DNA of 64,000 nucleotides from NCBI GenBank assembly GCA_017452525.1, contig JAFTMG010000054.1, positions 1-64,000 on the forward strand, given 5' to 3'. Origin of the DNA: Clostridia bacterium. Lineage in GTDB: Bacteria; Bacillota; Clostridia; Oscillospirales; CAG-272. Shown here piece after piece: positions 3,430-16,975 of the stretch (position 1 is the stretch's first letter; the number at the start of each line of letters is the position of its first letter). The notes below the pieces were generated by a model. The model did not search any database. It was not told the DNA's origin and saw only the letters and a list, made by a program, of their open reading frames with translations. The position numbers and the translations under genes were made by a program.

Positions 3430-5481
3430 TTACTTTTCTTTTGCGAACTGCGCAAGGATATCCTTGGCGAGCAGTTCCGCGCGTTGCTTGGACGCGGTGG
3501 TGGACAGATGGTAATACGAATTGTAGAACCAACTCTTATCCAGAATAAAGGTTCCGGGATCGGAGATGACCGTAGCCTTCGGGAATGCCCGAACGACCGC
3601 CGCACGGAATTCCGCCTGAATTGCGGGATTCTGCCCCTCCTTGGTCAGGGCAAGCTTCAGCGTGGAGGCAAAGGAGATGTACACCTTACCGCCCTTGTCC
3701 AGCACCATATCGATCGCCTTGTTCATATTCACGTTATAGTCCGCGGTAACCAGACCGAGATCCATCTTCAGCGAACCGACGCCGCCTTTGTTCTCCCAAT
3801 TTTTAATATCACCAATCAATCCCGATGTTTGACCGTTATGATTGATGTTGAATTCACCGTATTGGGAAACGCCGGGCTCACCGCCCTGCTTGTTATAGCT
3901 CTCATAGGTCGAGGCTCTCACGTTATAACGGTTGGTATTGAAGGATGCGAACGAGGTGAAGACCTTGATATAATTACGGATATCCACGTCGGCATAGGCA
4001 TTGTAGGCGCCCTCAAAGATCTGCCATGTGGTGGTATTCATCTCGTTATAGCCGTACTGATACTTATGATATTCGGGGCAAAGCACCACGATATCCCCTT
4101 CATTCATATGCGCGACCGCGACCTCGATATAGAAAACCGCGGGGGTTCCCTGATTACAGCCGAAATTGACACCGGCATACTCACCGCCCAGCTTATTCTG
4201 GATCGTCTCAATATCGATACCGTAGGACACGTTGGAGCCGGCGTGGAAGACCATCTTCTTGCCCTCCGCCGTGATCAGTCGCTGATATTTCATCTTATAG
4301 GTACCGTTGTTGGAGGTCGAATGGCGGGGGTCGATGCAGGCGAGCATATACAGCTTTTGCAGCTCCCGACAGTTGGTGAAGGATGCGTCCGAGATCTTGG
4401 AGGGGGTATCGCAGAAATAGAGCGTCTTCAGCGAGCGGCAGGCGAGGAAGGCGTTGTCCTCCACCGTCATCAGATTCCGGGAGAGATACAGGGTGGTAAA
4501 TTTGCCGTTTAAGAAAGCGTTTGCCGCGATCCGTGTAACGGGCAAGCCATCGATGGTCTCGGGAATAACGACCGTCTCGTGAGTGCCGCTGTATTTGGTA
4601 ATGGTGACCTGATTGTTGGCGACCGTATAGGTGAACGCCTCTTTCTCCGTCACAGGCATCCATTGGGCGTACAGCGTCATCGAGGAGGTGTTTTCCGGGA
4701 ACGGAGCCGACCAGCCGGGACCGTAATAGGTGCCGCTGCCATCGGGCTTCGTATTGTAGCCGTAAAGCACGTAACCTTCCCTCGTGAACTGTCCCTTATT
4801 CGCCAGCGTGTTGGGCGCGATAAAGGGTGAGGAGTCCGCGAACACGTAATATTGCTGCGATTCCTTGCCGCCGTTGCTGTCGTAAATAACCAATCGACCG
4901 CTACCGAGGAAGTAGTTGGTATAGATCTCCACGTTTTCCGTCGCGGTGAAGGTATAGTCCGTCGCACCGGAGACGATGGCACCGCCGTTGGCTCTGGAAG
5001 CACCGATCGAATAGCCGAGGAAGATCACCCCCTTGGCGGGCGTGACCGACAGAGTGACCTCGGTATCCTCCTTGACCGTACCCAGATCCACGTTGGAGGT
5101 GAGCGTTCCCTGCCATGCGTTATTCTGAACGGTAACGGAAAGATCGTTCAACACGCGCGTCTCCACCTCTACCGTGGTGGGAAATCGGACCGCGGGCACC
5201 GTCAGAATGCCGTTCTCATAGACTGCGCCCTGACCGATGCTTTCGATCTTATATCCGTCCAGGATCTCCACTTCAAAGGAAACGTCGCTTCCCGCCTCCG
5301 CACGAACAGGATTTTCTCCCGTAATGGTCATACCCTCCGCTTCCTGCAGCATGACGTCGACCGTGATCGCGGGCTTGGTGCTTTCCTCACCCGGAATATC
5401 CTCCGGGACATCGATCATGCAGCCCGTCAACAGTAGCGTCAAACAGGCGGCAAGCAAAAAAAGCAATCGAAATTTTCTCAT
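3430..5481 (-). CDS. Surface lipoprotein: InlB-type repeat, BspA-type LRR and SGNH-like domain (paralogue 1)
   Basis: A 683-aa exported lipoprotein: signal peptide with lipobox LLLTGC (Cys21), then a beta-rich region, a Listeria-Bacteroides (InlB B-type) repeat ending in LYAQW near residue 275, a BspA-type leucine-rich stretch (LYLSRNLMTVEDNAF), and a C-terminal domain of about 280 aa. That last domain carries GSNVSYGID, at the place of the GDS/GSS nucleophile block, and a late D-x3-F-x5-HL segment resembling the catalytic Asp/His block of DltD/AlgX-type SGNH proteins. The 7.6-9.1 kb gene has the same two blocks in clearer form. Probably a cell-surface protein that handles acyl groups on glycans, working with the nearby MBOAT protein. 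It is the last of three paralogues in the cluster; RBS GGGGAGG precedes ATG. Enzyme activity is inferred, not shown. Confidence 0.72.
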   Translation of the reverse strand: MRKFRLLFLLAACLTLLLTGCMIDVPEDIPGEESTKPAITVDVMLQEAEGMTITGENPVRAEAGSDVSFEVEILDGYKIESIGQGAVYENGILTVPAVRFPTTVEVETRVLNDLSVTVQNNAWQGTLTSNVDLGTVKEDTEVTLSVTPAKGVIFLGYSIGASRANGGAIVSGATDYTFTATENVEIYTNYFLGSGRLVIYDSNGGKESQQYYVFADSSPFIAPNTLANKGQFTREGYVLYGYNTKPDGSGTYYGPGWSAPFPENTSSMTLYAQWMPVTEKEAFTYTVANNQVTITKYSGTHETVVIPETIDGLPVTRIAANAFLNGKFTTLYLSRNLMTVEDNAFLACRSLKTLYFCDTPSKISDASFTNCRELQKLYMLACIDPRHSTSNNGTYKMKYQRLITAEGKKMVFHAGSNVSYGIDIETIQNKLGGEYAGVNFGCNQGTPAVFYIEVAVAHMNEGDIVVLCPEYHKYQYGYNEMNTTTWQIFEGAYNAYADVDIRNYIKVFTSFASFNTNRYNVRASTYESYNKQGGEPGVSQYGEFNINHNGQTSGLIGDIKNWENKGGVGSLKMDLGLVTADYNVNMNKAIDMVLDKGGKVYISFASTLKLALTKEGQNPAIQAEFRAAVVRAFPKATVISDPGTFILDKSWFYNSYYHLSTTASKQRAELLAKDILAQFAKEK

Positions 5482-5517
5482 AAAAACCTCCCCTCAGGGA
5501 CTTTTCGCCTGCCAAGC

Positions 5518-7563
5518 TCATTTTTCCTTGGCAAACTGAGCCAGAATATCCTGTGCCAACAGCTTGGCACGGTACACAGAGCTCTGAGTAGACAAATGAT
5601 ACTGGGAATTGTAGAAATAGCTTTGATCCAGAACATACGTACCCGGATCGGAAATGACCGCCGCCTTCGGGAACCTTCTGACCACGGCATTTTTAAACGC
5701 ATTCTGAACGGCGGGATTCTGTGATTCCTTACTCAGCCACTGCTTCATCGTGGCGGCAAAAGAAATGTAGACTTTACCGCCCTTGGCATTGACCATATCG
5801 ATCGCCGCATTCATATTGGCGTTGTAGCTCTGATTCAGCAGGTTCATGTCGATATTCAGGTTTCCACTGTTGGAAGTCCATTTCGCAATACTCTGCTTCA
5901 GCGCGCTGGTCTGACCGTTGTGATTGACATTATACTCACCGAATTTGGTCACAGCAGGATCGCCGCCTGCAGTACAAAACTGCTCATAGGTCCGCGGCGT
6001 GGAATTGTAGCGGTTCGTATTAAAAGCGGCAAAGGAGCTGAACACCTTGATGTAATTCCGAATATCCACGTCGGCATAGGCGTTGTAAGCGCCCTCGAAG
6101 ATCTGCCACGTGGTCGTGTTCATCTCATTGTAGCCATATTGGTACAGACCGTATTCGGGACAAAGCACGATAATATCGCCCTCGTTCATGTGAGCGGTGG
6201 CGACCTCCATATAGAATATCGCCGGTGTGCTGATATTGCAACCGAAATTGACGCCCGCGTACGCTCCGCCCAGCGCATCCTGGATCGTTTCGATATCGAT
6301 GCCGTAGGAGACGTTGGAGCCGGCGTGGAAGATGATCTTCTTCCCTTCCGCCGTGATCAATCTCTGGTATTTGACCTTGTAGGTACCGTTATTGGAAAGC
6401 GAGTAACGGGGATCCAGACAAGCCAGCATATACAGCTTCTGCAGCTCATCGCACTTGGAAAACGAGTTATCCGTCATGCCGCTGGGCGTATCGCAAAGAT
6501 AAAGCGTGGTAAGGGAGCGGCATGCCACGAAGGCATTGTCGTCAATATTTCTGAGATTTCTCGACAGATACAGCGTTTTGAACTTGCCGTTCACAAACGC
6601 GTTTGCCCCGATGCGCGTCACGGGCATACCGTCGATGGTCTCGGGGATCACGACCGTTTCATGACTTCCCTTATATTTCGTGATCATCACCTGCTTGCCG
6701 GAGACCTTATAGGTAAACGCGTCCTTTTCCGTCTCAGGCATCCACTGAGCATACAGCGTCAGCGGTGCGTCATTCGCGGGCATGATCACCGACCAGCCGG
6801 GACCGTAATAGGTACCGCTTCCGTCCGGCTCGGTATTGTAGCCGTAAAGCACGTGCCCTTCCTTTGTAAACTGCCCCTTATTCGCCAACGCGTTAGGACC
6901 GATGTAGGGAGAAGTCGAAGAGAAAACATAATACTGCTGGGGCTCGTTGCCGCCGTTGCTGTCATAGATGACCAAACTGCCGGTGCCGAGATAATAGTTG
7001 GTATAAAGCTCCATGTTCTCGGTCGCCGTGAAGGTATACTCCGGCGAGGTACACACGATCGTGCCGCCGTTGACTCGGGTGGCACCTACCGAATAGCCCA
7101 GAAAGATCACACCCTTGGCGGTGGTGACAGACAGCGTGACCTCGGTATCCTCCTTGACGGAGCCAAGATCCTCCACGTTTGCGGTCACCGTTCCCTGCCA
7201 CGCATTGTTCTGAAGCTTGATCTCCAGATCGTTCAAAAGACGCGTTTCCACCTCTAACGTGGTGGGAAAGCGGACCGACGGCAATGTGATCACGCCGTTC
7301 TCATAAGTGACCCCTTGCGGGACCGTCTCAATTTTATAACCATCGTGGATCTGTATGGGAAACGATACATCGCTGCCCGCTTCGACAACAACGGGATTCT
7401 CTCCCATCACCGTCATGCCTTCCGCATCCTGCAGCATGACGCTGACCTTCATTGCGGGCTTGGTCTCGTCCGGAAAGAGCCCCTCTTCCGTATACAACGT
7501 ACAACCGGACATCAGGACCGTCACGATCAAGACGGTCAGGCATATCAAACAAATTTTCTTCAA
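5518..7563 (-). CDS. Surface lipoprotein: InlB-type repeat, BspA-type LRR and SGNH-like domain (paralogue 2)
   Basis: A 681-aa paralogue of the neighbouring 683-aa lipoprotein, similar over its whole length. It starts with TTG, supported by AAAGGAGG 6 nt upstream. The lipobox is VLMSGC (Cys21). The order is beta-rich region, InlB-like repeat (LYAQW near residue 275), LRR strip, then the SGNH-like domain with GSNVSYGID and a terminal D-x3-F-x5-HLS block. Only 36 bp separate it from paralogue 1, so the two are probably co-transcribed. A strong hairpin lies between it and the upstream SGNH/MBOAT genes and may uncouple the lipoproteins from them. The retained putative catalytic residues argue against a decayed copy. 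Confidence 0.72.
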   Translation of the reverse strand: MKKICLICLTVLIVTVLMSGCTLYTEEGLFPDETKPAMKVSVMLQDAEGMTVMGENPVVVEAGSDVSFPIQIHDGYKIETVPQGVTYENGVITLPSVRFPTTLEVETRLLNDLEIKLQNNAWQGTVTANVEDLGSVKEDTEVTLSVTTAKGVIFLGYSVGATRVNGGTIVCTSPEYTFTATENMELYTNYYLGTGSLVIYDSNGGNEPQQYYVFSSTSPYIGPNALANKGQFTKEGHVLYGYNTEPDGSGTYYGPGWSVIMPANDAPLTLYAQWMPETEKDAFTYKVSGKQVMITKYKGSHETVVIPETIDGMPVTRIGANAFVNGKFKTLYLSRNLRNIDDNAFVACRSLTTLYLCDTPSGMTDNSFSKCDELQKLYMLACLDPRYSLSNNGTYKVKYQRLITAEGKKIIFHAGSNVSYGIDIETIQDALGGAYAGVNFGCNISTPAIFYMEVATAHMNEGDIIVLCPEYGLYQYGYNEMNTTTWQIFEGAYNAYADVDIRNYIKVFSSFAAFNTNRYNSTPRTYEQFCTAGGDPAVTKFGEYNVNHNGQTSALKQSIAKWTSNSGNLNIDMNLLNQSYNANMNAAIDMVNAKGGKVYISFAATMKQWLSKESQNPAVQNAFKNAVVRRFPKAAVISDPGTYVLDQSYFYNSQYHLSTQSSVYRAKLLAQDILAQFAKEK

Positions 7564-7604
7564 TATGGGCCTCCTTTCAAAAAGTCCTCCACATGCTTTC
7601 TGAA

Positions 7605-7630
7605 AAGGCTGCCGCGGCAGCGGCAGCCTT
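7605..7630 (-). terminator. Strong hairpin terminator
   Basis: An 11-bp GC-rich stem (AAGGCTGCCGC / GCGGCAGCCTT) with a 4-nt loop, followed on the minus strand by TTTTC. It sits between the stop of the SGNH acyltransferase gene and the start of lipoprotein paralogue 2. An outer CCTCCAC/GTGGAGG pair extends it. Confidence 0.75.
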
Positions 7631-7639
7631 CGTGGAGGA

Positions 7640-9082
7640 TTACTCCTTTTCGAGGATCATATATCCGCCGTATTTACTCCAGAAATAGTCCGCAACGAAC
7701 GACTCGTAGGACTCCTGCGTGGTCAGGACCAGCTTGACGTTGGCAGGTGCGCCCTCAAAGACGGCATCGCCCACACCAAGTCCTTCCGCACTCTCGCGGA
7801 TCACGTAGATCTTTGCCAGATTCGGGCAGTCCGCAAAGGCACCGTCCATCAGCTGAACGATATTCTGGTTGATGGTGATCTTGGTCAGATTCTCACATCC
7901 CGCAAACGCGCCCTTCTCGATGGCAAGGACAGCCTTACCGTCGGCAGAGGCAGGCAGGGTGAGCGCGGCAAGCTTCTTGCCCTCCTCGGTCACACCGGTG
8001 ACGGCATAGCCGCTGCCGTATTCCGCATAGGTAAAGTGAGAAGCCAGGAGCGCGTCGGTCTCCGCCGCCACGTCCTCACTGATGGGACGCTCGGGCGCCT
8101 CGGGGATCTCAATGGAGATCTGCTGCGTGATGCCGCGGGTACGGTTGATATCATGCGCCAGGAGAGAGGTTCTCAGGACGACGCCGCTGTCATTGAGGTG
8201 GAAATTACTGTCATAGAAGTAATCTTCATCAATAATATAATCGTTGACGTTACTGATGACCTCGCAATCCAGTGTCTCGTACAGGAAAGAGTAAAACTCG
8301 AAGAGCGTATCCTGCGTGTTGTCGGGAGAAACGGCAGAAGCATTCATGGGGCAGAAGCTGAAATAGACCGTTGCACCCTGCTCTTCACAGTAAGCGGTGT
8401 ACTCGTTGATATAGTCGATGAATTCCTCGTCGAACAGATCTGCCGTCAGATCGATACTCTTGGTGGGATCGTATCCCAACAGCATGGTATTATAGGGGCG
8501 CTCATAAACGATATCGCCGTAATCGTTGAAGGAGTCACGGTTATATACGCCTGCGGGATCCAAAAGCCCCTCGCGCAGATATTTGATCTTGGATGTCAGA
8601 TATTCATACAGTCCGCCCACCAGATCGGAGCGGTCCTCCTTGGGGATATAACGGAGCATATTCCAATTGCTCTCCATGCCTTGCAGTGCCGCTTCGGCGT
8701 TGAAGTACAGGGAGAGGGTCTGCTCATCCATCTCGGGGGCAAGCACGACGATGTCGCCCTCGTTGACGTTGGCTTTGGAAAGATCCATCATGATCTTAGT
8801 ACCAAGCGTTGCGTAAAGACCGAAGTTGACGACGGGCATGCCGACGTGCTGTTCCAGCAATGCCGAATCCAGACCGAAGGCGACGCTGGAGCCGCCGACA
8901 ATGATGACCTTGGGCTCGTCGAACTCGTTGAGACGGTCATACTTAGGCGCCAGCTCTCCGAGGAAGGTCTGGCCGTAGACGGGCTTGGCAAAGGCTGCGA
9001 CGCCGATGACGGCGCCAAAGGGGATCAGAACCGCCAAAAGCAGGGCGATCAGCTTGATCCAGTTTTTTACTTGATTGCTCAT
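7640..9082 (-). CDS. Membrane-anchored SGNH (AlgX/DltD-like) acetylation protein with C-terminal LRR
   Basis: A 480-aa protein with an N-terminal membrane anchor (residues 8-30), an extracytoplasmic SGNH-type domain, and a C-terminal BspA-like leucine-rich segment from about residue 370. IIVGGSSVAFGLDS near residues 60-73 matches the block I nucleophile Ser of AlgX/AlgJ/DltD-type proteins. The segment DEDYFYDSNFHLNDSG near residue 290 gives the Asp/His block. Known partners of MBOAT exporters take acyl groups passed across the membrane and load them on glycans. It lies 19 bp downstream of an MBOAT gene, which supports that role here. The LRR tail links it to the three lipoproteins of the cluster and is unusual for the family. 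Confidence 0.8.
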   Translation of the reverse strand: MSNQVKNWIKLIALLLAVLIPFGAVIGVAAFAKPVYGQTFLGELAPKYDRLNEFDEPKVIIVGGSSVAFGLDSALLEQHVGMPVVNFGLYATLGTKIMMDLSKANVNEGDIVVLAPEMDEQTLSLYFNAEAALQGMESNWNMLRYIPKEDRSDLVGGLYEYLTSKIKYLREGLLDPAGVYNRDSFNDYGDIVYERPYNTMLLGYDPTKSIDLTADLFDEEFIDYINEYTAYCEEQGATVYFSFCPMNASAVSPDNTQDTLFEFYSFLYETLDCEVISNVNDYIIDEDYFYDSNFHLNDSGVVLRTSLLAHDINRTRGITQQISIEIPEAPERPISEDVAAETDALLASHFTYAEYGSGYAVTGVTEEGKKLAALTLPASADGKAVLAIEKGAFAGCENLTKITINQNIVQLMDGAFADCPNLAKIYVIRESAEGLGVGDAVFEGAPANVKLVLTTQESYESFVADYFWSKYGGYMILEKE

Positions 9083-9101
9083 CAGATCCTAACCTCCTTT
9101 C

Positions 9102-10562
9102 TCAGAACTGGAAGTAAATGAACGAGCTCGCGCCGTCGCCCACCAGCAGCAGCAGCCAGGCGATCGCGATGATCCAAATGATGTAGGCATAACGGAAGAC
9201 GGGGATCACACCGTCGGCGTCATTGCCGAGACGAAGCTGATTGATGTCCATACGGTTCATGATATAAATGGAAAGGACAGAGATCAGCACGGCGATCAAA
9301 GTCAAGCCCAGGTGATCAAAGGACGCGTTGATATAAGCATCCGAGAGGCTCCAGTCGGTAAACAGCTTCTTGACCAGCAGCAGCGCGTCCGCGGTGCTGT
9401 TGGCGCGGAAGAAGATCCACGCGAAGCAGACCAGCACGAAGGTAAACGCCTTGCGGAAAAGATGGAGTCCCTTGGAGTCGCGGGAGATGTGCATGGCATC
9501 CAGCGCCTTTTCACGCAGGGGCTTCAGCAACTTGCCGATGACCTGATAGAGACCGTGGAGGGTACCCCAGATAACGAAGGTCCAAGCGGCACCGTGCCAC
9601 AGACCGGATACCATAAAGACGATCATGATATTGCGCAGATTCTTCCACTTGGCGCAACGGCTGCCGCCCAGCGGGAAGTAGATGTAATCCTTGAACCAGG
9701 TCGAGAGCGAGATGTGCCAGCGGCGCCAGAACTCCTGAATGCTCTCGGAAATATACGGACGGTCAAAGTTCTGCATCAGATGAATACCCATGATCTCGGC
9801 ACAGCCGATGGCAATGTCGGTATAGCCGGCAAAGTCGCAATAGATCTGCACGGCGAAGAGGACGGTGGCGACCACGACACCGAGACCGGTGGCGTTTGCC
9901 GCATCGTTATACACCGCGTTGACGTAGGTTGCCAGCAGATCGGCGACAACGACCTTCTTGAAGAAGCCAATCAGCATCTTACGCAGACCGTTGCGGGTAT
10001 TCTCCCAATTGGGTCTGTGGCACTCATGCAACTGAGGAATCAGGTTGTTGGGACGCTCGATAGGACCCGCAACCAGCTGCGGGAAGAACACGACGTAGAG
10101 CGCATAGAAGAAGAAGTTGGGCTCCGTCTTCACGTCCCCACGGTATACGTCGATCACGTACGACAGCGTCTGGAAGGTGTAGAAGGAAATACCTACCGGC
10201 AGGATCAGATCCAGATTGAAAGGATCTGCGCCGATGCCGAAGACCTTGAGCGCCTCCACGACGGAATCGGAGAGGAAATTGAAATACTTATAGAAGAACA
10301 GGATACCGAGACAAGTGACCAGCGTGATCACCAAAAACAGCCTGCGGATCGCCTGACGCTTGGTACGCTCGATCAACTTCGAGCTGACCCACGAAATGGT
10401 GGTGGTAAAGACGATCAGATAGATCAGCTTCACGTTCCAGCTGATATAGAAATAGTAGCTGGCGAGAAGCAGCAAGATCCAGCTCACCTTTTTAGGCAGA
10501 GCAAAGTACAGAAGCAGAACGATGGGGAAAAAGATCAGAAATCCGATAGAGTTAAATACCAT
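9102..10562 (-). CDS. MBOAT family membrane O-acyltransferase (AlgI/DltB-like)
   Basis: A 486-aa polytopic membrane protein with about ten hydrophobic segments. The MBOAT signature is clear: SLSTWFKDYIYFPLGGSR around residues 283-300 and the catalytic-His region MVSGLWHGAAWTFVIWG around residue 320. Such proteins move acyl groups from cytoplasmic acyl-CoA to the outside, where an SGNH partner attaches them to polysaccharide or teichoic acid. Here the SGNH partner follows directly, and a 72-aa membrane protein precedes it by 15 bp. There is no dltA/dltC pair, so glycan acetylation (AlgI/PatA type) is more likely than D-alanylation. The target polymer cannot be read from sequence. Confidence 0.9.
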   Translation of the reverse strand: MVFNSIGFLIFFPIVLLLYFALPKKVSWILLLLASYYFYISWNVKLIYLIVFTTTISWVSSKLIERTKRQAIRRLFLVITLVTCLGILFFYKYFNFLSDSVVEALKVFGIGADPFNLDLILPVGISFYTFQTLSYVIDVYRGDVKTEPNFFFYALYVVFFPQLVAGPIERPNNLIPQLHECHRPNWENTRNGLRKMLIGFFKKVVVADLLATYVNAVYNDAANATGLGVVVATVLFAVQIYCDFAGYTDIAIGCAEIMGIHLMQNFDRPYISESIQEFWRRWHISLSTWFKDYIYFPLGGSRCAKWKNLRNIMIVFMVSGLWHGAAWTFVIWGTLHGLYQVIGKLLKPLREKALDAMHISRDSKGLHLFRKAFTFVLVCFAWIFFRANSTADALLLVKKLFTDWSLSDAYINASFDHLGLTLIAVLISVLSIYIMNRMDINQLRLGNDADGVIPVFRYAYIIWIIAIAWLLLLVGDGASSFIYFQF

Positions 10563-10577
10563 GTCTTATTCCCTCCT

Positions 10578-10796
10578 TCATGCCAGACCGATCGCCAGGG
10601 TGAAGAGCAGAACGAGCAAAAGCTCCTCCATGCTTGCATCCACCCACAGCATCAAGCCGAACAGTGCCAGATGTGCAAGTACGTCCAGCACGAGCCAGAC
10701 CTTTTTAAATCGCGTTTTATCATACAGCAGGCGGAAAACAAAGGTCAAAGCCACCAATGCCGCAATGGGGAGCGCGTTTGCTAAAATCACTTCCAT
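10578..10796 (-). CDS. Small hydrophobic membrane protein (72 aa)
   Basis: A 72-aa protein with two to three hydrophobic segments and a basic stretch (YDKTRFKK) between the first two. I chose the internal ATG because GAGGT lies about 7 nt upstream; a longer frame starting 7 codons earlier has no RBS. It is sandwiched between the lipoprotein paralogue 3 gene and the MBOAT gene, 15 bp before the latter, so it is probably an accessory membrane subunit of the acyl-transfer complex, like the small proteins found beside dltB. No family is recognised. Confidence 0.6.
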   Translation of the reverse strand: MEVILANALPIAALVALTFVFRLLYDKTRFKKVWLVLDVLAHLALFGLMLWVDASMEELLLVLLFTLAIGLA

Positions 10797-10846
10797 GTAA
10801 ATACCTCGTGCCGCCAAGGGCGGTTAATGTCAGATCGTTTGATTGC

Positions 10847-12886
10847 TTACTCTTTGGCAAGCTGTGCCAGGATGTCCTTTGCCAACCAGCGGGTGCGCAG
10901 TTGGCTGCCGACGGTGTTCAGATGATAGATGGAGTTATAGAAGTACTGATAATCCATTACGTAGGTTCCCGGCTCGGAGATGACCGTTCCGTGAATGTTC
11001 TTGATGACGGCGTTCTTATATTCCGTCTGTCGCGCGATCCCTTGAGATTCCCTGTTCAGGTTGATCTTCATGGTACAGCAGAAGGTGATATATACCTTGC
11101 CGCCCGCCGCCGCGATGTGATCAAACTCGCGATTGAGGTTGGCAACGTAGCTCTGCTTCAGATAGTTGGGATCCATGTTCATAGATCCGACACCGCCCTG
11201 TGCCAAAAGGTTATTGATCGTGCCCTGGATGGGACCGCTTCCGATCTTTTCCTTAATATAGTCACCGTAGCTGTTGACTGTCTCGCCGGAATAATTCTCA
11301 TAGGAGCGCGGCGTCATGGTATAGCGCGAACCGTTAAAGGAGGAGAAGGAGGAGAATACGTTTTTGTAGTTTCTCAGATCCACGTGGATAAAGGCATCGT
11401 AGGCACCCTCGAAGATCTGCCATGTGGTGGTATTCATCTCGTTGTAACCCCACTGATAATTCCGCATTTCCGGCGCGTGGACCACAACATCCCCTTCCTC
11501 GATGAAGTCGGCGATCACATCGTAGTAGAAGCAGGCGGGGGTATCCTGATTACAACCGTAGTTGACCACCGAATAACGGTATCCGAGGTGCTCCTCAAGC
11601 ATAGCGGAGTCGATACCGTAGGAGGTATTGGAGCCGGAATGGATGATCAGCTTGGGACTTTCCGCCGTGATCAGACGCTGATACTTGATCATATAATTTC
11701 CGTTTCTGCTGGCGCAATAACGGGGATCCATACAAGCAAGCATATACATCGTTTTCAGATTGGTACAATCGGCGAAGGACGCGTCCATGATGACGCGAAC
11801 GGTATCACACAAATAAAGCGTCTCAAACTGTTTGCAATTGCTGACCGCACCTGTATTAAAGGATAGAATATTTTTGGAAATGTACAGAGATTTAAAGGAG
11901 CAGTTGGTAAAGGCTCCCTTGCTGACCGAGGTGACGGGATAGCCGTCGATGGTCTCGGGAATGACCACCATTTCGTGATCGCCCCGATATCCGGTGATGG
12001 TCACCGTCTTCTTGGTGGCGTTGACCTCATAAGTAAAGGCTTCCTTCTCGGTCACCGGGAACCATTGGGCGTAGAGCGTGACCACGTCCTGCGGGTCCTT
12101 TGGCATGATGATATTCCAGCCGGGACCGTAGAAGGTGCCGCTGCCGTCCGCCTCGGTATTGTATCCGTACAGCACGTAGCCGTCACGGGTGAAATAATCG
12201 GTATTGATCAGCGCATGAGGACAGATATAATGCGAAGCGTTGGAAAAGGTGTCATACTGCTTGGGCTGATCGCCGCCGTTACTGTCGTAGATGATCAGTC
12301 TGCCGTCTCCCACATGATAATAATTGGTAAAGATCTCGACCTCTTCCTGCAGACGGAAGGTATATTCCTCGGTCGTACACACGATCTCCGCACCCTTTGC
12401 CGCCGTGGTTCCGAAGGAATATCCGAGAAAGACCACACCCTCGGCAGGCGTTACCTGCAAGGTGATCTCGGTATCCTCCAGCACGTTTCCGCCGCCGATG
12501 GAGGAGCGGATCTTTCCCTGCTCGGCATTGTTGGACACCGTCATTAGAAACTTTTGCAGCGGTCGGGTCTTCATCTCCACCGTGGTGGGAAAGCGAACAT
12601 CCTCCAGCGTGATCACGCCGTCTTCATAGGTCGCACCGTCAGACAGGGTATCGATCTTATACATGTCCGCCAATGTCACCGCAAAACTGGCGTTGCCGCC
12701 CGCTTCTACCGTGACGGGGTTTTCTCCCGTGATCGTCACGCCCTCCGCCTCCTGAAGCATCACGCTGACCATCAAGGGCTCGGGACCCTCCAGAACGTCG
12801 CCGATCACATCAGCCACGCCCATGCATCCCGCCAGAAATATCACACCGCATAAAAGCAGTGTCAACAGCATCCATTTTTGTTTCAA
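10847..12886 (-). CDS. Surface lipoprotein: InlB-type repeat, BspA-type LRR and SGNH-like domain (paralogue 3)
   Basis: Read from a TTG start preceded by AAAGGAG, the product is 679 aa, matching its 681- and 683-aa paralogues. The open frame extends 28 codons further upstream but that extension would destroy the signal peptide. The lipobox is IFLAGC. The order is beta-rich domain, InlB-like repeat ending LYAQW, LRR strip, and an SGNH-like domain with GSNTSYGID and a terminal D-x3-F-x5-HL block. It is the first gene of the surface cluster and has its own consensus promoter about 75 bp upstream. This is the most diverged of the three. Role is inferred from the adjacent MBOAT/SGNH pair. Confidence 0.72.
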   Translation of the reverse strand: MKQKWMLLTLLLCGVIFLAGCMGVADVIGDVLEGPEPLMVSVMLQEAEGVTITGENPVTVEAGGNASFAVTLADMYKIDTLSDGATYEDGVITLEDVRFPTTVEMKTRPLQKFLMTVSNNAEQGKIRSSIGGGNVLEDTEITLQVTPAEGVVFLGYSFGTTAAKGAEIVCTTEEYTFRLQEEVEIFTNYYHVGDGRLIIYDSNGGDQPKQYDTFSNASHYICPHALINTDYFTRDGYVLYGYNTEADGSGTFYGPGWNIIMPKDPQDVVTLYAQWFPVTEKEAFTYEVNATKKTVTITGYRGDHEMVVIPETIDGYPVTSVSKGAFTNCSFKSLYISKNILSFNTGAVSNCKQFETLYLCDTVRVIMDASFADCTNLKTMYMLACMDPRYCASRNGNYMIKYQRLITAESPKLIIHSGSNTSYGIDSAMLEEHLGYRYSVVNYGCNQDTPACFYYDVIADFIEEGDVVVHAPEMRNYQWGYNEMNTTTWQIFEGAYDAFIHVDLRNYKNVFSSFSSFNGSRYTMTPRSYENYSGETVNSYGDYIKEKIGSGPIQGTINNLLAQGGVGSMNMDPNYLKQSYVANLNREFDHIAAAGGKVYITFCCTMKINLNRESQGIARQTEYKNAVIKNIHGTVISEPGTYVMDYQYFYNSIYHLNTVGSQLRTRWLAKDILAQLAKE

Positions 12887-12960: not shown

Positions 12961-12989
12961 AATATACCATATTCGTCCCTTCAAGTCAA
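12961..12989 (-). promoter_or_regulatory. Sigma-A-type promoter of the surface-acylation cluster
   Basis: On the minus strand TTGACT (12989-12984) and TATATT (12966-12961) are separated by 17 bp, about 75 bp upstream of the TTG start of lipoprotein paralogue 3. It probably drives the whole run of lipoprotein, small membrane protein, MBOAT and SGNH genes. Confidence 0.75.
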
Positions 12990-13124: not shown

Positions 13125-13811
13125 ATGTTCTTCTCTTTTTTCTCCTTGTTTACTCACCTTTTCCACCTCATTCTCGGCATTGATTCGCCCCAAACCTTCC
13201 CTCCCCCGCTCCCGTCACACGTGGAGCGAGAGTACTTCGCCAAGGCTGCCGAGGGAGACGAGGATGCGCGCCAGCTGCTGATCCTGCACAATTTGCGCCT
13301 GGTCTCACACATTGTCCGCAAATATTACGGCGCGGCAAAAAACCAGGAGGACCTGGTCTCCATCGGGAGCATCGGACTGATCAAGGCGGTGGATAGCTTC
13401 AATATTCAAAACGGCGCCCGATTTGCCACCTATGCCGCCAAATGCATCCAGAATGAGATCCTGATGTATTTCCGCTCGCAAAAGAAGCTCAGCAACGAGG
13501 TGTCGATCCACGAGACCATCGACGTAGATCGGGACGGCAATCCCCTGACCTATATGGACGTGATCAGCTGTGAGGACACCATTGCGGAGGATCTGGACAA
13601 AAAGATGCAAACAGAAAAGATGCTGCGCATGCTGAGGACGGTGCTGAGCGAGCGTGAGCGCCAGATCATCGTCATGCGCTACGGTCTGTTCGGACAGCGT
13701 GCGCGGACGCAGCGAGAGGCGGCGGATCTGCTCGGGATCTCCCGCTCCTACGTCTCCCGCATTGAAAAAAGCGCGCTTGAAAAACTTCAGCACGCGTTGG
13801 GCGGGCTGTGA
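13125..13811 (+). CDS. sigK: Sporulation sigma factor SigK (pro-sigma-K)
   Basis: A 228-aa sigma-70 factor of the mother-cell sporulation type. The first 20 residues are hydrophobic, as in the pro-sequence removed from pro-sigma-K. Region 2 follows (HNLRLVSHIVRKYY, then DLVSIGSIGLIKAVDSF and FATYAAKCIQNEILM), and region 4 ends with an HTH (EAADLLGISRSYVSRIEK). RBS GGAGG lies 6 nt before ATG. The gene is intact, with no skin-type prophage interrupting it. It controls late mother-cell genes for coat and cortex; spoVA and SASP genes elsewhere in the window agree with a sporulating host. It stands alone between divergent and convergent neighbours with its own terminator. Confidence 0.93.
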   Translation: MFFSFFSLFTHLFHLILGIDSPQTFPPPLPSHVEREYFAKAAEGDEDARQLLILHNLRLVSHIVRKYYGAAKNQEDLVSIGSIGLIKAVDSFNIQNGARFATYAAKCIQNEILMYFRSQKKLSNEVSIHETIDVDRDGNPLTYMDVISCEDTIAEDLDKKMQTEKMLRMLRTVLSERERQIIVMRYGLFGQRARTQREAADLLGISRSYVSRIEKSALEKLQHALGGL

Positions 13812-15465: not shown

Positions 15466-15837
15466 CTACCCCTTAGGCTTTCCGTGAAAGAAAAGCGCGG
15501 CAAGATAACCAAAGCAGAGCGCAGCGGCGATCCCTCCCGCGGCAGCGGTCAAGCCTCCCGTCAGCGCGCCCAGAATCCCCTGCTCATCCACCGCCTTGCG
15601 CACGCCTTGCGAGATCAGGTATCCAAAGCCCGTCAACGGCGTAGTCGCGCCTGTCCCCGCAAATTTGACCAACGGCTCGTACACCCCCACCGCGCCGAGA
15701 AACACGCCCGCCGTGACGTATAGCACCAAAATCCGTGCGGGGGTCAGCTTGGTCCGATCAATGAGGATCTGTGCGATCACGCAAAGCCCGCCGCCCACGG
15801 CGAATGCACACACGTATTTCATGACCTGATCCATCAT
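15466..15837 (-). CDS. spoVAE: Stage V sporulation protein AE (SpoVAE/AEb)
   Basis: A 123-aa integral membrane protein with four hydrophobic segments. Its sequence matches the SpoVAE/SpoVAEB family, with ILIDRTKLTPARILVLYV and the PLTGFGYLISQGV segment typical of the family. SpoVA proteins form the inner-membrane channel that loads Ca-dipicolinate into the forespore and releases it at germination. It overlaps the spoVAD stop codon by ATGA, so translation is coupled. The expected third core gene, spoVAC, is not next to it. Confidence 0.9.
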   Translation of the reverse strand: MMDQVMKYVCAFAVGGGLCVIAQILIDRTKLTPARILVLYVTAGVFLGAVGVYEPLVKFAGTGATTPLTGFGYLISQGVRKAVDEQGILGALTGGLTAAAGGIAAALCFGYLAALFFHGKPKG

Positions 15838-16847
15838 TTCTCCCCCTCCCCGATACCGTGCCGAAAATGCACCAGATGCGCCACCGCGGGGATGGCTTGC
15901 CCTTGCTTGATGCTGTCGGGGCTCATCATGGCACCCGTGCCGATCAACAGCATCTCACGTATCTCGCCGCTCTTCAGCTTGGGATACAGATATCCCGCCA
16001 TCACGGAGGCAGAGCATCCGCAGCCGGATCCGCCCGCATGGGTATCCTGCGTTTTGCGCTGATAGATCATCATGCCGCAATCGTTGAGACGATCGCCCAC
16101 GTCAAACCCCTCGGCGTACAGCAGATCTCCAAGAATGGAGATCCCCTCATAGCCAAGGTCTCCCGTGGCGATCAGATCAAAGCTCTGCGGCTCCCTCCCC
16201 GTCGCCCGAAAGAACCGCACGAGGGTATCCAGCGCCGCGGGGGCCATCGCCGCGCCCATATTGGAGGTGTCGGTGATGCCCTTTTCCACCACCTTGCCGG
16301 GCATGGCTGCAACCAGCTCCACCTCACCCCGTCCCGATGCCACCAGATAGGCGCCCGCCCCCGTGACCGTCCATTGCGCGGTGGGCGTCCGCTGTCCGCC
16401 GTACTCAACGGGCGTGCGATACTGCCGCTCCGCCGAACAGTAGTGCGAGGATGCCACCGCCGCGCAAAGTCCGTAGACTCGATGGGTGGCACAGATCCCC
16501 GAAAGGATCAGCCCCTCCGCCGCCGTGGAGCAGGCACCGTACAGTCCGAAATAGGGCGCGGGAAAATCCATCAGTCCATACGCCGCCCCCACACATTGGT
16601 TCAGAAGGTCCCCCGCGAAGATCGCCTGCAGATCATCTTCCCGCAACCCGCCTTTTTTGAGTGCCAGATTGAGCGCGCGGCGCTGCATCTCGCTCTCTGC
16701 CCTCTCCCACGTCTTCTGACCGAAACGGTCGGTCGGGTCAAACATGTCAAAGCACTGCCCGATCGGCCCCTCGTGCTCCCGATGCCCCACCACCGACGCG
16801 CAGGAAACGATATGCGCCTGCAGGGGGATCCATTCATTCTTGCTCAT
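15834..16847 (-). CDS. spoVAD: Stage V sporulation protein AD (SpoVAD)
   Basis: A 337-aa thiolase-fold protein of the SpoVAD family, which binds dipicolinic acid on the outer face of the spore inner membrane. I start it at MSKNEW, since GAGGTG lies just upstream and the length then equals the usual 338 aa; a frame open 35 codons further upstream has no RBS and crosses the region after the araC terminator. GPIGQCFDMFDP and GACSTAAEGLIL are characteristic of the family. It overlaps spoVAE by 4 bp. Upstream, only a terminator and an AraC gene are found, so the pair must use its own promoter and spoVAC must lie elsewhere or be absent. Confidence 0.92.
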   Translation of the reverse strand: MSKNEWIPLQAHIVSCASVVGHREHEGPIGQCFDMFDPTDRFGQKTWERAESEMQRRALNLALKKGGLREDDLQAIFAGDLLNQCVGAAYGLMDFPAPYFGLYGACSTAAEGLILSGICATHRVYGLCAAVASSHYCSAERQYRTPVEYGGQRTPTAQWTVTGAGAYLVASGRGEVELVAAMPGKVVEKGITDTSNMGAAMAPAALDTLVRFFRATGREPQSFDLIATGDLGYEGISILGDLLYAEGFDVGDRLNDCGMMIYQRKTQDTHAGGSGCGCSASVMAGYLYPKLKSGEIREMLLIGTGAMMSPDSIKQGQAIPAVAHLVHFRHGIGEGEK

Positions 16848-16905
16848 ACGCCACCTCAACAACTCTTTTTCGTTAGTTTGCGCGGCGAAAACGGATTTAT
16901 GCGCC

Positions 16906-16933
16906 AAAAAAGCCGACTCTTCAAGAGTCGGCT
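16906..16933 (-). terminator. Terminator of the AraC regulator gene
   Basis: A 10-bp hairpin (AGCCGACTCT / AGAGTCGGCT) followed on the minus strand by six Ts. It lies 43 bp after the AraC stop and separates that gene from spoVAD. Confidence 0.85.
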
Positions 16934-16975
16934 TGGGTGTATGCCGCGCCATTCGCAGGTTTGGACATCACGGTG

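Follow-up and report, generated by a model that had tools for sequence, protein, structure and literature searches.

The DNA analysed here is a 64,000-nucleotide window from a gut-dwelling Clostridia bacterium (assembly GCA_017452525.1, contig JAFTMG010000054.1, positions 1 to 64,000). At 3430-12886, on the minus strand, it carries a gene cluster for an MBOAT protein, an SGNH partner protein with leucine-rich repeats (LRR) and three large lipoproteins, LP1, LP2 and LP3. Judged from its sequences, the MBOAT/SGNH core very likely functions as an acyltransferase at the cell surface. From sequence conservation, structure models and analogy, we tentatively read the whole cluster as a surface MBOAT/SGNH O-acyltransferase in which the lipoproteins would form an added SGNH stage or adaptor on the acceptor side, a reading that we hold at somewhat less than an even chance. 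The acyltransferase core is of a known kind; what the cluster adds to it are three SGNH lipoproteins whose active site is altered and a small membrane protein. No publication on this combination of LRR/SGNH lipoproteins with an MBOAT was found among open-access full texts. Acylation of bacterial surface sugars confers resistance to enzymes and host defences. In this module, which occurs in many gut Clostridia, an MBOAT bearing the shuttle motif and an SGNH enzyme with its full catalytic set are found together with a sister SGNH domain that varies naturally between Asp and Asn; such modules provide material to test one SGNH step against two.

The five large open reading frames (ORFs) of the initial annotation were all found on the minus strand at the sizes stated there, together with a sixth, small ORF. 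The order of transcription is LP1, a 72-residue protein, MBOAT, the SGNH-LRR partner, LP2 and LP3, and adjacent genes are 15 to 76 bases apart. Conservation was assessed over loci of the window's family and 80 loci from relatives, in which 133 lipoprotein-, 112 partner- and 105 MBOAT-labelled ORFs were deduplicated to 97, 83 and 79. Three lipoprotein-labelled ORFs without the SGNH-like domain were dropped and one protein contains two, giving 95 lipoprotein domains.

The initial annotation had proposed an MBOAT plus SGNH acylation core, and this was confirmed. The MBOAT (486 residues, 9102..10562) matches Pfam PF03062 at 111.2 bits against a cut-off of 27. It is DltB-like, with 170 bits to TIGR04091 (below the cut-off of 375) and an E value of 1.6e-29 to PDB entry 6bug. 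The His of its WHG motif is kept in 78 of 79 homologues. The C-terminal FIYFQF (9105..9122) conforms to the acyl-shuttle motif FxYxxF, a hexapeptide that carries the acyl-Tyr in PatA and is located on DltX in the Dlt pathway (PMC12148441, partial text). FxYxxF is present in 77 of the 79 MBOATs, which are all 77 with a complete C-terminus; of the other two, one is truncated by a contig end and one is a stray ORF of 91 residues. Another MBOAT of the same genome (contig C23, L082 at about 6146-7738) ends in FIYNQF, has an acyl-carrier-like small protein just upstream and represents a different acylation system.

The partner (480 residues, 7640..9082) comprises an N-terminal helix of residues 3-31, which is its membrane anchor, an SGNH domain and a C-terminal BspA-type LRR. 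Ser65, Asp291 (codon GAC, 8210..8212) and His295 are complete in 83 of 83 homologues. Its AlphaFold2 model, built with 32 homologues, has a mean pLDDT of 91.6, and the N-terminal part shows the SGNH fold, superposing on DltD (6pfx) with Z 10.4 and a root-mean-square deviation (rmsd) of 5.0 over 237 residues. The DltD family PF04914 has no match in the partner or anywhere in the window's genome, and it is not one of the 19 families that the 32-member partner alignment hits. Partners with about 220 additional N-terminal residues occur at L056:10491-12623 and L077:6813-9035; PF14018 (DUF4234) is matched by two of the 32 partner homologues, probably these copies.

The three lipoproteins are paralogues of 679, 681 and 683 residues, as had been claimed (LP1, 10847..12886; LP2, 5518..7563; LP3, 3430..5481). 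LP3 exhibits 71% identity to LP2 and 52% to LP1. All three possess the signal peptide and lipobox of a bacterial lipoprotein, with the lipobox Cys in LAGC, MSGC and LTGC, respectively. The strict lipobox pattern is found in 65 of 88 long homologues; in many of the others the box is looser or the start is cut or misplaced. Each of the three comprises beta modules, B-repeats, LRR and the SGNH-like domain. The BspA-type LRR described for the lipoproteins and for the tail of the partner were verified, LRR_5 scoring above cut-off in all four proteins. The InlB-type repeats are of the kind described, and their matches are weak: Flg_new and Flg_new_2 remain below cut-off in LP1-LP3, and TIGR02543 barely passes in LP1 only (21.4 against 20.95 bits).

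On the basis of the structure model we are confident that the C-terminal domain of the lipoproteins has the SGNH fold. A Pfam scan gave no SGNH family match in these roughly 290 residues, or in the partner, and therefore the assignment rests on structure. The AlphaFold2 model of LP1, built with 40 homologues, has a mean pLDDT of 92.1. Within the SGNH-like domain (residues ~387-679, 10850-11728), residues ~389-679 match SGNH esterases in the PDB with Z 10-13, including rhamnogalacturonan acetylesterase 1deo (Z 12.1, rmsd 3.9, 174 residues) and OatA 6vjp (Z 11.2, rmsd 3.3, 146 residues). This fold had been set beforehand as a check on the initial annotation, and it came out as predicted. Foldseek alone was weak on the SGNH part (DltD, E 3e-3 and about 1e-3), and the structure searches gave no AlgX or AlgJ among the matches listed, which excludes nothing. 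By hhalign, the SGNH domains of the lipoproteins and the partner are homologues that align over 275 columns (E 2e-51, 26% identity), and the two groups separate cleanly on a tree with SH-aLRT 99. In a profile comparison of both domains with 14 GDSL proteins from 30 loci, block I was not settled and the local match aligned the block V His only.

The lipoprotein active site keeps two of its residues strictly. The nucleophile Ser (Ser419 in LP1, codon 11630..11632) is present in 93 of 93 domains with letters at this position, and the His (His655 in LP1) in 93 of 94. The acid slot is occupied by Asp in 49 domains and by Asn in the other 45, 94 in all, and never by another residue. It is Asn, encoded by AAC or AAT, in all three lipoproteins of the window: Asn651 in LP1 (AAC, 10934..10936), Asn652 in LP2 and Asn654 in LP3. 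The complete Ser-Asp-His set that the initial annotation had expected alongside the fold is thus lacking in all three, so that one half of its own two-part test went against it. Alignment and conservation point to these Asn residues as the block V acid slot, equivalent to Asp291 of the partner, with a spacing of D-x3-H instead of the usual D-x2-H.

Two other assignments were tried and rejected. The motifs GSNxSYGID and D-x9-HL noted in the initial annotation are present; the Asp of the latter (645/646/648) is not the conserved acid and could not be upheld as a substitute for it either, the column being Asp in only 21 of 94 domains and lying ten residues before the His. An acidic residue in that column is not commoner with an Asn slot (27 of 45) than with an Asp slot (26 of 49; Fisher p 0.54). 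If the third residue of GSS/GSN/GSG were the nucleophile, the window lipoproteins would lose the Ser. However, Ser419 and Ser65 of the partner align to the catalytic Ser of OatA and TesA, a register taken from the aligned ranges that assumes the residue numbers of those enzymes and no gap near the first strand; partner position 66, being Asn or Ala in 5 of 83 homologues, also counts against the third residue.

To account for the acid-column states, no fewer than 12 changes are needed on a quickly built tree (92 lipoprotein and 12 partner domains, with that column removed), which has SH-aLRT support only, several open forks and long branches. The slot can differ among paralogues of one cluster, as at L048, L062 and L065. 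Gly444 of LP1, which follows the second strand and is for that reason taken as block II, is Gly in 87 of 93 lipoproteins. At the place expected for block III the alignment shows no conserved Asn in the lipoproteins and a conserved Pro472-Glu473. Residues invariant in the partner, namely F69, Y90, T95, Q121, T122, S124, P245 and N247, are not kept in the lipoproteins. Separately, L060:5926-9594 encodes a single lipoprotein-type ORF of 1222 residues with two SGNH-like domains, one of which has Asn instead of His.

At the sequence level, the near-invariance of Ser and His argues for an active site that is used. The missing acid does not prove the lipoproteins inactive, because certain SGNH esterases that carry binding modules have no block V Asp and work with a Ser-His dyad (PMC9487903, partial text). 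In eight of the 80 loci a lipoprotein gene is followed at 3 to 61 nt by an SGNH gene with no MBOAT beside them. For three of these pairs (L093/L125, L097/L151 and L110/L165) the same assembly, going by the record names, also has the full module. It is because Ser and His are kept, Asn is tolerated in the acid slot, the partner residues are lost and the lipoproteins pair with SGNH genes in the absence of MBOAT that we read them as an acceptor-side stage or adaptor.

Under this reading, the MBOAT would take an acyl group from a cytoplasmic donor and load it onto the Tyr of its own C-terminal FIYFQF. Acyl-CoA would be the likely donor, since no carrier gene is adjacent. The membrane-anchored SGNH-LRR protein would accept the group on Ser65. 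A lipoprotein on the outer face of the membrane may then bring the acceptor glycan by its B-repeats and LRR and pass the acyl group through its own Ser-His site, in the way that AlgX follows AlgJ. With Asn in its acid slot the enzyme would be weaker, and hydrolysis may give way to a slow or relay-type reaction. As for the small membrane protein, it could be a structural partner of the MBOAT or its link to the lipoproteins.

A relay with two SGNH proteins is published for AlgI-AlgJ-AlgF-AlgX (PMC10641220 and PMC4148444, partial texts), in which the terminal transferase is AlgX and AlgJ shows at most weak binding to the polymer. Like the present cluster, this system and WssH/I/G/F combine one MBOAT, more than one SGNH protein, the second with a binding module, and an extra small component (PMC10641220 and PMC9487903, partial texts). 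The triad of AlgX is complete and its binding module is a jelly-roll, whereas lipoproteins of the window type have B-repeats and LRR, and half of them Asn in the acid slot. Among the neighbours that were annotated, none is an alginate or cellulose gene. By analogy, the alginate relay offers the closest working model, a likeness in working and not a sign of membership.

Several observations weigh against an acceptor-side stage of this kind. About half of the lipoproteins, including all three of the window, lack the catalytic Asp. L100 and L101 have MBOAT and SGNH genes with a full upstream flank and no lipoprotein, so the core can do without them. The LRR tail of the partner could itself bind the acceptor, in which case a second stage would be needless. 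AlgJ and AlgX are circularly permuted (H-S-G-N; PMC9487903, partial text), whereas Ser419 precedes His655 here, and the two are not architectural homologues.

A more specific form of the proposal is a Gram-positive relay of two SGNH stages in series, from the membrane SGNH protein to lipoproteins whose repeated Asp/Asn switching perhaps tunes the life of the acyl-Ser against hydrolysis, with an unnamed microprotein assembling the relay with the MBOAT. We regard this as possible, if doubtful. It is unlikely that the lipoproteins serve as scaffolds that bind glycan and hold the acceptor near the active partner, their SGNH domain being worn down and performing no chemistry, though the 45 Asn slots, the repeated changes on the tree and the loss of the partner-invariant residues all speak for it. 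Conservation of Ser and His is far stricter than a dead site needs, and the slot admits only Asp or Asn.

The initial annotation had suggested parallel acyltransferases or esterases that their repeats would bring to different glycans. The idea that every lipoprotein acts independently as an acyltransferase, receives its acyl group straight from the MBOAT and serves its own glycan has in its favour the shared superfamily and operon, the kept Ser and His and the occurrence, in several lineages, of clusters with as many as three paralogues. This idea was weakened by the missing Asp of the window copies, the absent partner-specific residues and the lipoprotein-SGNH pairs without MBOAT, and we consider it quite improbable. 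Recruitment to different glycans also found no support, as the binding modules diverge no faster than the SGNH domains: over five domains LP1 and LP3 are 61, 52, 58, 54 and 51% identical, the SGNH domain being the least conserved, and identity is even along the chain both for this pair (51-61%) and for LP2-LP3 (69-75%). Least probable, and very unlikely in our view, is that the lipoproteins are surface esterases removing or editing the acyl groups added by the MBOAT/SGNH pair: rhamnogalacturonan and xylan acetylesterases are among the top structural matches of LP1, and esterases with binding modules can run on a Ser-His dyad (PMC9487903, partial text), but fold matches at superfamily level do not fix the reaction, an Asn acid slot is unfavourable to an efficient hydrolase, and the coupling to the transferase gene is close. 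CE2-type esterases likewise join binding modules to an SGNH domain and often lack the block V Asp (PMC9487903, partial text); the lipoproteins differ from them in the lipid anchor, the B-repeat and LRR modules, the operon with an MBOAT and the strong likeness to the transferase partner.

The core itself resembles two known systems. Like the peptidoglycan O-acetyltransferase PatA/PatB, it has an MBOAT with C-terminal FxYxxF and a conserved His (PMC12148441, partial text), and its SGNH protein, which is separate, has a membrane helix at the N-terminus and the Ser-Asp-His set. It differs from PatA/PatB in the LRR tail of the SGNH protein, the accessory SGNH lipoproteins, the small membrane protein and the D-x3-H spacing, which is D-x2-H there. 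With DltB/DltD/DltX it shares the DltB-like MBOAT, a partner that superposes on DltD and a small membrane protein. Unlike in that system, the partner lacks PF04914, no acyl-carrier gene is adjacent, and it is the MBOAT, not the small protein, that bears the shuttle motif.

This small protein, overlooked in the initial annotation, has 72 residues with two or three hydrophobic segments and is encoded between LP1 and MBOAT (10578..10796). A hydrophobic ORF of 67-101 residues ending beside the MBOAT start was found at 31 of 33 MBOAT loci of the family genomes, the window included; one exception is cut and in the other the MBOAT call overlaps the gap. A profile finds the protein in 52 of the 80 loci, all within the 71 that have an MBOAT, and 8 of the 15 lipoprotein-MBOAT loci that it misses hold a gap ORF with two or three hydrophobic segments. 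A comparable ORF arose in 2 of 2000 block shuffles of the window gap, and three of the four other MBOAT genes in the window's genome have no such ORF. The protein is weakly conserved (29% mean column identity), and Pfam and NCBIfam gave nothing consistent for it. The C-terminal FxYxxF is absent from 31 aligned small proteins; lacking this shuttle motif, the small protein is, by its sequence, not a DltX. MBOAT pathways other than Dlt are said to have no DltX-like microprotein (PMC12148441, partial text), and the present protein, which has no such motif, would add a small membrane protein to them.

The module is common in the window's family and rare outside. With E values up to 1e-20 as the homology threshold, LP1 homologues occur in 31 of 196 genomes and 13 of 71 genera of the family. 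In wider draws at the same threshold, partner homologues occur in 7 of 295 genomes of the order, 4 of 341 of the class and 1 of 348 of the phylum, the window's own genome being counted each time. A contig search gave 233 relatives, of which 80 loci were kept; a contig scan using the three lipoproteins gave no matches. Nearly all 80 are from metagenome-assembled genomes of Clostridia or Oscillospiraceae, mostly from herbivore guts. The architecture anticipated for relatives was recovered: 71 of the 80 loci have a lipoprotein next to the partner or to its MBOAT, and seven of the nine exceptions are cut at a contig end. The nearest relative, L086 from goat cecum, is 80% identical. Its single lipoprotein (L086:11468-13525) lies downstream of the SGNH gene and is sister to LP2/LP3, with no counterpart of LP1 upstream.

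Upstream of LP1, a consensus scan identified a promoter-like site, TTGACT-17-TATATT (12961..12989, minus strand), with 10 of 12 matches, a consensus match only and not proof. LP1 starts with TTG preceded by AGGAG, and an alternative longer ORF (ATG, 707 residues) begins within the promoter-like -10 box. A perfect consensus, TTGACA-17-TATAAT, is situated at 3407-3379 (minus strand) before the next genes, a GH109-like oxidoreductase and GH20; it too is a consensus match and not proof, and on account of it the cluster probably ends with LP3. Across the 80 loci no gene outside the module recurs in more than 13, save one 64-locus family taken to be antisense reading frames, so no target polymer can be read from the context.

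A sigma factor gene lies divergent from LP1 and SpoVA genes are nearby (13125-13811 and 15466-16952), and therefore the organism probably sporulates. Elsewhere in the same genome, contig C88 (L084:2618-6682) encodes a bacterial TIR-LRR protein of 1354 residues, in which a TIR domain at the N-terminus precedes many BspA-type LRR.

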